A stretch of 64,000 nucleotides of DNA, from NCBI RefSeq assembly GCF_022637395.1, contig NZ_CP093337.1, positions 3,060,501 through 3,124,500 of the forward strand, in the 5' to 3' direction. Position 1 is the stretch's first letter. Each line of letters opens with the position of its first letter. The position numbers and the translations under genes are program-made. Under the pieces are notes generated by a model that was not told the DNA's origin, did not search any database, and was given only the letters and a program-made list of their open reading frames with translations. Below are positions 40,031 through 51,724 of the stretch, one piece after another. The stretch is from Shinella sp. H4-D48. GTDB taxonomy: Bacteria > Pseudomonadota > Alphaproteobacteria > Rhizobiales > Rhizobiaceae.

Positions 40031-40061
40031 AGCAAGGACAAAGAATGCAGGGAAACACGGC

Positions 40062-40135
40062 TGGAGCGGGTAGCGGGAATCGAACCCGCGCGTTCAGCTT
40101 GGGAAGCTGACAGGCTACCATTACATCATACCCGC
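40062..40135 (-). tRNA. tRNA-Gly (anticodon CCC)
   Basis: The reverse strand folds into a complete cloverleaf of 74 bases with the CCA end encoded. The acceptor stem is GCGGGTA/TACCCGC, the anticodon stem TCAGC/GCTGA encloses a loop TTCCCAA with anticodon CCC, and the T arm has the GGTTCGATTCC pattern. It reads GGG glycine codons. Confidence 0.97.
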
Positions 40136-40323
40136 AGGGCAGCGCCGAGGCCGCATCCATTCAACAGTTCGCGGATTGTGTCAAGCGAGCCGCGCCAAAC
40201 GGTCGGCCATATGAACGGATGTCCGACGAGCGAGACGAGCGGCGGCTGATTACGACAACCCTAGGTGACTGATAAACAACAAAAATCGTCCACAGCACGC
40301 CTTGTTACGAAAAGTGGTAATTT

Positions 40324-40376
40324 TGAGTCATATTTACGGCACTAAATCTTGACTCATAATTGCAAGTTTTATTATG
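40324..40376 (+). promoter_or_regulatory. Promoter and operator-like repeats before the TonB receptor
   Basis: Two direct copies of TTGA(G/C)TCATA lie 26 bases apart, centred on TGAGTCA (40324-40330) and TGACTCA (40350-40356); each core is a palindrome and contains a GANTC site. CATAAT (40355-40360) and ATTATG (40371-40376) form a further inverted repeat. TTGACT (40349-40354) and TATTAT (40370-40375), 15 bases apart, could be the promoter, so a bound regulator would block or aid RNA polymerase. Start codon at 40426. Confidence 0.45.
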
Positions 40377-50823: not shown

Positions 50824-50886
50824 AAAAATCAAAAGCCGCCTTGCGGCGGCATGCTGCACTATCTGCATTTCATGTCGTGATGTCAA
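50824..50886 (-). promoter_or_regulatory. argDF promoter with terminator-like leader hairpin
   Basis: On the reverse strand TTGACA (50886-50881), 17 bases, and GATAGT (50863-50858) form a promoter. Right after the expected start site comes GCCGCC-GCAA-GGCGGC (50850-50835) followed by TTTTGATTTTT, which has the form of an intrinsic terminator. About 63 bases then separate it from the argD ATG. It could attenuate argDF transcription or protect the mRNA 5' end. Confidence 0.6.
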
Positions 50887-50931: not shown

Positions 50932-51184
50932 GATTCACGGCATCCATGGACAGTGTCGCTATCGAGTCACACCCTACCAGCAAGTTGGGGAAAACTCCGA
51001 AATCGATTCGCACCGATTCCCCCGACTCTTGTCACAGAGTCCCCCGGACTCTAGGTTAAGGGCCAATTACTAGACTGCATGCGGCGGAACTAGTCACCAC
51101 CAGAGTTAGGGCGCTCAGGCTGCGAATTCGTTCGTGGCGCGATGAGGGATTCCTGCATAGCGAGCGCCGAACGGAGACGAGAGC
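50932..51184 (+). promoter_or_regulatory. gcrA upstream region: GANTC cluster and CtrA-like box
   Basis: Eight GANTC sites lie here, starting at 50932, 50964, 51005, 51015, 51024, 51037, 51047 and 51148; five fall within 47 bases. TTAAGGGCCAATTAC (51056-51070) matches the CtrA consensus TTAA-N7-TTAA at all but one base. TTGTCA (51029-51034) with a weak TAGGTT (51052-51057) 17 bases later is a possible promoter, which would place two GANTC sites between its elements and the CtrA box over its -10 and start. GcrA itself acts at methylated GANTC promoters, so autoregulation is a natural inference. No gene lies in the gap 50761-51184. Confidence 0.7.
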
Positions 51185-51724
51185 ATGAACTGGACAGACG
51201 AGCGGGTCGAGAAACTCAAGAAGCTCTGGAGCGAGGGCCTCAGCGCCAGCCAGATCGCTGCGCAGCTCGGCGGCGTGAGCCGCAACGCCGTCATCGGCAA
51301 GGTGCACCGGCTCAACCTGCCGGGCCGCGCCAAGGCTGGCGGCACGCCGGCTTCGGCCCGCCCGAAGCGCCCGGCGGCGACCACCCCGCGCCCCTCGAAC
51401 TTCGCAGCGCGCCCGGCCAACGCCCCCCGCCCGGTCAGCCGGCCGGTGGGCAATGCGCTCACCAAGGACGAAGTCGAAACCGATTTCGACGTACAGACCG
51501 AGAACCTGCCCGTCGTCATCAGCGGCAAGAACGTCGTGGTACCGATGTCGCGCAAGCTGGAACTGACGCAGCTTACCGAGCGCACCTGCAAGTGGCCGAT
51601 CGGCGATCCGCTGAACGACGACTTCCATTTCTGCGGCTGCGAGTCCCCTGACAACTCTCCCTATTGCACCTACCACCAGCGCCTCGCCTACCAGCCTTCG
51701 GCCGAGCGCCGCCGCGCGCGATGA
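51185..51724 (+). CDS. gcrA: Cell-cycle regulator GcrA
   Basis: The 179-residue protein is GcrA, a sigma-70-associated cofactor that activates promoters carrying CcrM-methylated GANTC sites in alphaproteobacteria. The N-terminal DNA-binding helices (MNWTDERVEKLKKLWSEGLS, then GGVSRNAVIGKVHRLNLPGR, about 29-48) are nearly invariant. A Pro/Ala-rich linker follows, then the C-terminal sigma-binding part with a cysteine cluster (TCKWPIG, HFCGCES, PYCTYH). A GGAGACGAGAGC ribosome-binding site precedes the ATG. The upstream region is unusually dense in GANTC. A terminator follows. Confidence 0.98.
   Translation: MNWTDERVEKLKKLWSEGLSASQIAAQLGGVSRNAVIGKVHRLNLPGRAKAGGTPASARPKRPAATTPRPSNFAARPANAPRPVSRPVGNALTKDEVETDFDVQTENLPVVISGKNVVVPMSRKLELTQLTERTCKWPIGDPLNDDFHFCGCESPDNSPYCTYHQRLAYQPSAERRRAR

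Follow-up and report, generated by a model that had tools for sequence, protein, structure and literature searches.

A conserved array of CcrM-type GANTC sites around the predicted -35 element of gcrA in Shinella sp. H4-D48: a candidate replication-coupled methylation switch

Introduction

In Shinella sp. H4-D48, eight GANTC motifs lie in the DNA directly upstream of gcrA. This locus raises the question of what such an array does at this gene, and whether methylation of its sites would switch gcrA up or down. The original prediction for this DNA, made from the letters alone, was a methylation-timed autoregulatory switch, in which GcrA activates its own methylated promoter and CtrA represses it. 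It also proposed that GANTC density be compared with other intergenic DNA and with the gcrA upstream regions of relatives.

A GANTC array at gcrA is already published for a relative, A. tumefaciens, where six GANTC lie in the 250 bp upstream of the gene. In that report, a gcrA reporter was less active when methylated, both in A. tumefaciens and in E. coli, and CcrM depletion raised gcrA (PMC11514494). Repression was measured on the whole 250-bp region, and a figure legend states that no start could be predicted for the A. tumefaciens gcrA promoter (PG). The gene is located about 0.43 Mb from ori1, and its opening by hemimethylation after fork passage was proposed (PMC11514494). In this study, we focused on the bases of the Shinella promoter that could act as the sensor and on how far they are kept among relatives.

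Materials and Methods

The window is the whole stretch of DNA that was analysed, 64,000 nucleotides in length (contig C1, positions 3060501-3124500), from a genome of 4.77 Mb in three contigs. GANTC counts in the window were compared with dinucleotide shuffles. The genome sample of 464 kb consisted of the window and 20 stretches of 20 kb, about one tenth of the genome, and 5,000 masked bases are included in its denominator.

The near loci were the best 80 of at least 588 stretches encoding a gcrA relative, and all 80 were used; they are related by descent, and counts among them are not independent events. The search of the order covered 150 genomes, 146 of them with GcrA, and that of the class covered 289 genomes, 179 of them with GcrA. 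Sixty upstream regions from the order and 40 from other orders were compared; these were chosen by hand among the stronger matches, mostly one per family. Four of the 60 came from the family of the window itself; without these, the far counts rest on 56 order loci.

Results

Locus and genome setting

The cluster is located upstream of a gcrA orthologue, in the gap of 424 bp between argD and gcrA (Table 1). The closest gcrA relatives among the matches listed, from which the genome itself may have been left out, are Ensifer and Rhizobium-type loci. The genome encodes a CcrM-type enzyme (locus L205; PF01555 with RAMA, PF18755). When hemE, an origin neighbour in Caulobacter, was used as the origin marker, gcrA was about 0.40 Mb from it across the contig ends, provided that contig C1 is circular; the place of the origin itself is deduced from hemE and a weak GC skew. 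A search for structured RNA under the cluster gave no Rfam match between 50500 and 52000 at E values up to 1.

Table 1. Features of the argD-gcrA region, in window coordinates
Feature	Position	Strand	Remark
argD	ATG 50760	-	Aminotransferase family PF00202; divergent from gcrA
Promoter-like site TTGACA-N17-GATAGT, perhaps of argD	50858-50886	-	Weak; 1 found against 0.4 expected in shuffles
GANTC, not conserved	50932-50936		Counterpart in 0/75 near loci with the -35 pair
GANTC	50964-50968		Near counterpart in 23/75 near loci with the -35 pair
DnaA W-box-like element TTTTCCCCA (TGGGGAAAA on +)	50986-50994	-	Centre about -76 from the predicted start
GANTC	51005-51009		Only one of the eight matching YGAKTCK; upstream of -35
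GANTC	51015-51019		All four core sites kept in 48/80 near loci (best 80 of at least 588)
GANTC, first of conserved pair	51024-51028		Ends directly before -35
Predicted gcrA -35 hexamer TTGTCA	51029-51034	+	Alignment; start site transferred from S. meliloti
GANTC, second of conserved pair	51037-51041		Begins two bases after -35
GANTC adjoining -10	51047-51051		Counterpart in 0/75 near loci with the -35 pair
Predicted gcrA -10 hexamer TAGGTT	51052-51057	+	Sequence and alignment
CtrA-like box TTAA-N7-TTAC	51056-51070	+	Overlies -10 and predicted start
Predicted gcrA transcription start (A)	51066	+	Carried over from S. meliloti via Ensifer loci L001 and L002
Conserved leader block at EcpR1 sRNA binding place	51079-51098	+	S. 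meliloti position and conservation
GANTC in transcribed gcrA leader	51148-51152		Kept in much of the order
gcrA	51185-51724	+	PF07750, E 8.4e-60

Density of the GANTC cluster

Site listing in the 64-kb window gave the eight GANTC between 50932 and 51152 that the original prediction had described, with seven of them packed into 120 bp (50932-51051); five of these fall within 51005-51051, spaced 10, 9, 13 and 10 bases apart. Seven of the eight are within 250 bp of the gcrA ATG, where A. tumefaciens has six. The window as a whole contains 76 GANTC against 334 expected from the shuffles, which indicates that the motif is avoided in the rest of the window. The genome sample of 464 kb held 519 GANTC (1.12 per kb), and the rate in crudely called intergenic DNA of this sample was 2.12 per kb (158 segments, 28.3 kb). 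At this intergenic rate, the Poisson probability of eight or more GANTC in 253 bp is 1.1e-7, a value calculated post hoc. The gcrA gap was denser than other intergenic DNA in the sample: outside the gcrA locus the maximum was three GANTC per 250 bp, and no window of that size had more. Another intergenic stretch with three GANTC is located at 40031-40359 of the window.

The second comparison proposed at the outset, with relatives, showed that the cluster is conserved. The near loci (best 80 of at least 588) had a mean of 4.9 GANTC per 250 bp upstream of gcrA against 0.23 expected, the latter calculated from the remaining DNA of these loci (0.93 per kb). Three or more GANTC were present upstream in 78 of these 80, and 30 of 9,183 overlapping flanking windows from the same loci contained three or four, none more.

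Core promoter and start site

The S. meliloti gcrA start is reported at -122 of the AUG, with EcpR1 binding 13 nt downstream of the start (PMC4414408). The start was transferred to the window from this published distance and the Ensifer loci L001 and L002 rather than from S. meliloti sequence, and a third Sinorhizobium locus (L010) was off by one base. A start at 51066 would make TTGTCA the -35 and TAGGTT the -10, and would set the conserved leader block at the EcpR1 place. The predicted promoter holding two GANTC between its -35 and -10 is readable as TTGTCA, 17 bp and TAGGTT, with the sites at 51037 and 51047 inside. A generic sigma-70 scan did not report this gcrA promoter, the -10 of which is weak. 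An NtrX site was also considered, since NtrX is reported to bind at the gcrA promoter of S. meliloti, with CAAN2-5TTG as its stated recognition sequence (PMC9223101). The only candidate in the gap was CAAGTTG, whose halves are a single base apart, and the site was not adopted.

Conservation of the pair around the -35

The two GANTC that straddle the -35 (51024 and 51037, 13 bp apart) were found at this spacing in 75 of the 80 near loci (best 80 of at least 588); five lack the exactly spaced pair, and one of these (L052) has a single extra base. Besides the start region, the alignment showed TTGGGGAAAAC, GACTC-TTGtCA-nnGAGTC and GCATGCGGCGGA as conserved blocks. Elsewhere in the genome, the 18-bp pair has no exact copy and no match within two mismatches.

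GANTC enrichment extends over the order, where the 56 loci had 3.1 sites in the 300 bp immediately upstream of gcrA and 0.52 in the 300 bp beyond. The corresponding values for the 40 loci of other orders were 0.95 and 0.58. The 13-bp pair was present in 18 of the 56 order loci and in 16 of 50 families, against 1.75 expected and a maximum of 9 in 5000 random placements; TTG or CTG directly follows the first site in 17 of the 56. Only one of the 40 loci from other orders has the pair, and the -35 letters are missing there. Its absence from 38 of the 56 order loci and from the Pseudochrobactrum locus L047 indicates that some loci can do without the pair. L047 lacks GANTC over 400 bp upstream of gcrA and has wholly lost the sites flanking the -35, which are partly lost in Falsochrobactrum (L053). 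Both loci retain TTGGGGAAAAC and CTTGTCA and so offer a natural test of the pair's role.

The letters of the downstream site were compared in the 21 order loci that have the upstream site. The N varied (G in 11, T in 8, A in 2), and G, A, T and C were each kept in 18-19 of the 21. This pattern, a variable N among retained letters, suggests that the methylation site itself is under selection. Among near relatives, however, the N of the downstream site hardly varies (G in 79 of 81) and most first sites read GACTC; in the order, the upstream site is also less well kept, with each letter retained in 20-25 of 32 loci that have the downstream site. For these two reasons, part of the pair's conservation may be for promoter letters.

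The leader GANTC

A GANTC between 72 and 20 bp before the ATG was present in 83 of 85 near sequences, 38 of 56 order loci and 3 of 40 loci from other orders. Five upstream control spans gave 2, 2, 4, 4 and 11 of 56 in the order loci, the last of them adjoining the promoter array. The N of the leader site is variable outside the family (leaders L083-L139), and 16 of the 56 order loci have two or more leader GANTC. A 6-bp GANTC step also recurs upstream of gcrA, in 8 of the 56.

A DnaA W-box-like element upstream of the array

The motif TGGGGANAA occurs in all 80 near loci (best 80 of at least 588) and in 29 of the 56 order loci, which belong to other families, always in a single orientation. 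In the next 300 bp it was found in none of the 56 (1 of 56 in the other orientation). In each of the 76 near sequences that have the pair, the window among them, the looser GGGGAMAA precedes the pair by 37-38 bp. In the 18 far loci with the pair, it is 37-38 bp before it in 5, 26-28 bp before it in 9 and absent in 4, with none in between; the two places are about one helical turn apart. On the other strand, the element reads TTNTCCCCA, with T (24), G (3) or A (2) as the variable letter, which corresponds to a DnaA box whose position 7 is C instead of A. Its TCCCCA core is that of the weak DnaA W-box described at the Caulobacter origin (PMC4285127). This core stands at a fixed place in 80 of 80 near loci (best 80 of at least 588), and binding of DnaA to it is putative.

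The element in the gcrA gap reads TTTTCCCCA and not the canonical DnaA box TTNTCCACA, which was found in 4 of the 56 order loci. Of the 40 loci from other orders (L142-L181), 18 have a canonical TTNTCCACA box in the first 300 bp upstream of gcrA and one has it in the following 300 bp; none of four similarly built control motifs exceeded 2 of 40. A DnaA-like box of either form is absent from 27 of the 56 order loci. This distribution suggests, short of proof, that gcrA is widely controlled by DnaA and that the box in many rhizobia is a variant one. Brilli 2010, with a matrix built on TCCACA sites, reported DnaA motifs at gcrA in several species but did not regard the DnaA-GcrA-CtrA system as conserved across the whole class (PMC2877005).

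The only other TTGGGGAAAAC in the genome (L203:1501-1511, contig C2) stands next to a GANTC, about 150 bp upstream of the second replicon's putative repA, identified by position. A connection of gcrA with repABC via TTGGGGAAAAC was rejected, as no other of the 31 family genomes (of 61) with a RepC match has TTGGGGAAAAC within 5 kb upstream of repC in a comparison by eye. In G437, TTGGGGAAAAC lies 4 kb downstream of repC. The copy near repA is likely lineage-specific or due to chance. The 61 family genomes held 104 copies of this 11-mer against 44 of a reversed control; since this amounts to about one extra copy per genome, TTGGGGAAAAC does not look like a general regulon motif. Eight of the 61 genomes lack the exact TTGGGGAAAAC altogether.

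The CtrA-like box

The CtrA-like box covers -10 to +5 of the predicted start, and its second half is TTAC, not TTAA. It was present in 31 of the 80 near loci (best 80 of at least 588), and in all 33 of the 85 near sequences that have one, it lies within -137 to -126 of the ATG. A search of 330 bp found the box in 4 of the 56 order loci, always outside -140 to -120, and in 5 of the 40 loci from other orders. A box over the -10 or the start is the arrangement of a CtrA-repressed promoter, here seen as a motif. In its two passages that mention gcrA, a paper on S. meliloti CtrA does not name the gene as a target (PMC4433202). Brilli 2010 predicted no CtrA control of gcrA in Rhizobiales; it predicted CcrM sites at gcrA and placed the gene under CcrM control in the cluster that holds rhizobia (PMC2877005). 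Of the predicted CtrA box and CtrA repression, the box is in place, and repression, which is a reading of the motif, is plausible for near relatives only.

Discussion

The comparisons above place the eight-site GANTC array within an old, conserved gcrA promoter. We consider that this promoter is a replication-coupled switch in which the pair around the -35 serves as the methylation sensor, and we put the probability of this reading at roughly 0.6. By analogy with A. tumefaciens, the promoter is probably switched down by methylation and released by the replication fork, not switched up. CcrM would methylate both strands of the sites late in the cycle, and methyl groups beside the -35 would lower RNA polymerase binding, so that gcrA is held down in G1. 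With gcrA about 0.4 Mb from the likely origin, the fork would hemimethylate the sites early in S phase and the promoter would open. DnaA at the upstream box probably helps this opening, and CtrA may close the promoter late where its box exists, as the two motifs suggest. To our knowledge, E. coli has no GcrA, and GcrA itself would not be needed for the methylation effect. Because repression is also seen in E. coli, the core promoter is the simplest candidate sensor, and within it we infer that the pair beside the -35 has this role.

In GcrA-activated promoters of the Caulobacter type, YGAKTCK stands between the -35 and the -10. Here it is found neither at 51037 nor at 51047, and the one match, 51005, lies upstream of the -35. 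At the sites flanking the -35, this motif of Caulobacter GcrA (PMC8725594) was found in 0 of 76 upstream and 1 of 76 downstream sequences, and because it is absent from all 76 and from 75 of 76, GcrA activation is unlikely at the pair. The activation of the gcrA promoter by GcrA bound to its methylated sites was thus not borne out. S. meliloti GcrA does bind fully methylated probes best (PMC3667746), and 42 of 66 sequences with a site at the place of 51005 match YGAKTCK there as the window does, but methylation turns the A. tumefaciens promoter down, in E. coli as well (PMC11514494), and we regard self-activation as very improbable. The same preference for fully methylated DNA (PMC3667746), the dense sites around the -35 and the YGAKTCK match of the upstream site in those 42 of 66 sequences would fit negative autoregulation, with GcrA on a fully methylated array blocking polymerase until hemimethylation relieves the block. 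This alternative is rather unlikely, since methylation lowers promoter activity in E. coli too (PMC11514494). Caulobacter promoters with GANTC between the -35 and the -10 are activated at 40-60 min (PMC4287350); they can also be read as activation, against the repression view.

The sites might instead be a hemimethylation sink or a decoy for CcrM or GcrA with their main role elsewhere, or might serve argD. Conservation of the leader GANTC, which lies far into the transcribed region, speaks for such a role. However, argD was not detected within 600 bp in 8 of the 17 order loci in which the pair encloses TTG or CTG, which disfavours it as owner of the cluster; its promoter-like site is at least about 120 bp from the core sites, and the pair is locked to the -35. 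We consider this explanation quite unlikely. Chance or base composition has close to no probability, with the shuffle counts, the density in the genome sample and the conservation in near and order loci all against it; the keeping of the cluster in the near loci (best 80 of at least 588) refutes it. Of the original prediction, then, the methylation-timed switch stands as the best reading, given a conserved cluster tied to the gcrA promoter and the A. tumefaciens precedent, and its activation by GcrA does not.

Dense methylation sites that are read out by hemimethylation are known from the Dam/SeqA GATC clusters. The gcrA array resembles them in both respects and differs in its place at a promoter, not an origin. 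The likeness is closest to A. tumefaciens PG: the gene is the same, GANTC is dense (six in 250 bp there, seven here), CcrM is present, and the distance from the origin is about 0.4 Mb, deduced in our case. Our sequence analysis goes beyond PG in setting the -35 between two sites and assigning a start, and it adds both a DnaA-like element and a comparison over the order. In Caulobacter ctrA P1, a GANTC is located at -29 of the start, as 51037 is relative to the predicted gcrA start, and a CtrA half site lies near the -10 (PMC4287350). P1 is activated once hemimethylated; one GANTC is named there and GcrA activates, whereas the gcrA promoter has several sites and no YGAKTCK at the -35 (PMC4287350). 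Control of Caulobacter gcrA by DnaA (PMC4287350, PMC2877005) and CtrA is matched by DnaA-like and CtrA-like sites in one promoter, but the DnaA-like box here is TTTTCCCCA, not TTATCCACA. As far as our searches show, the pair straddling the -35, the W-box-like element and the order-wide comparison are new; they were not found in the literature searched, mostly passages of open-access articles.

More tentatively, and on balance doubtfully, much of the order may share one compact replication sensor, in which DnaA on a TTNTCCCCA box at either of two places a helical turn apart is combined with a -35 between CcrM sites, and the sigma-factor contact is the methylation sensor. Such a sensor would couple initiation and fork passage to gcrA without GcrA or CtrA, and the leader GANTC would be a further control point.

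These results suggest that a methylation-repressed gcrA promoter is a design common to much of the order and not an oddity of A. tumefaciens. They single out particular bases, namely the two methylatable sites flanking the -35 and a DnaA-like box that a TCCACA-based search would miss. If the proposed reading is true, this promoter would allow a direct test of how bacteria use the passage of the fork as a timing cue without a dedicated reader protein.
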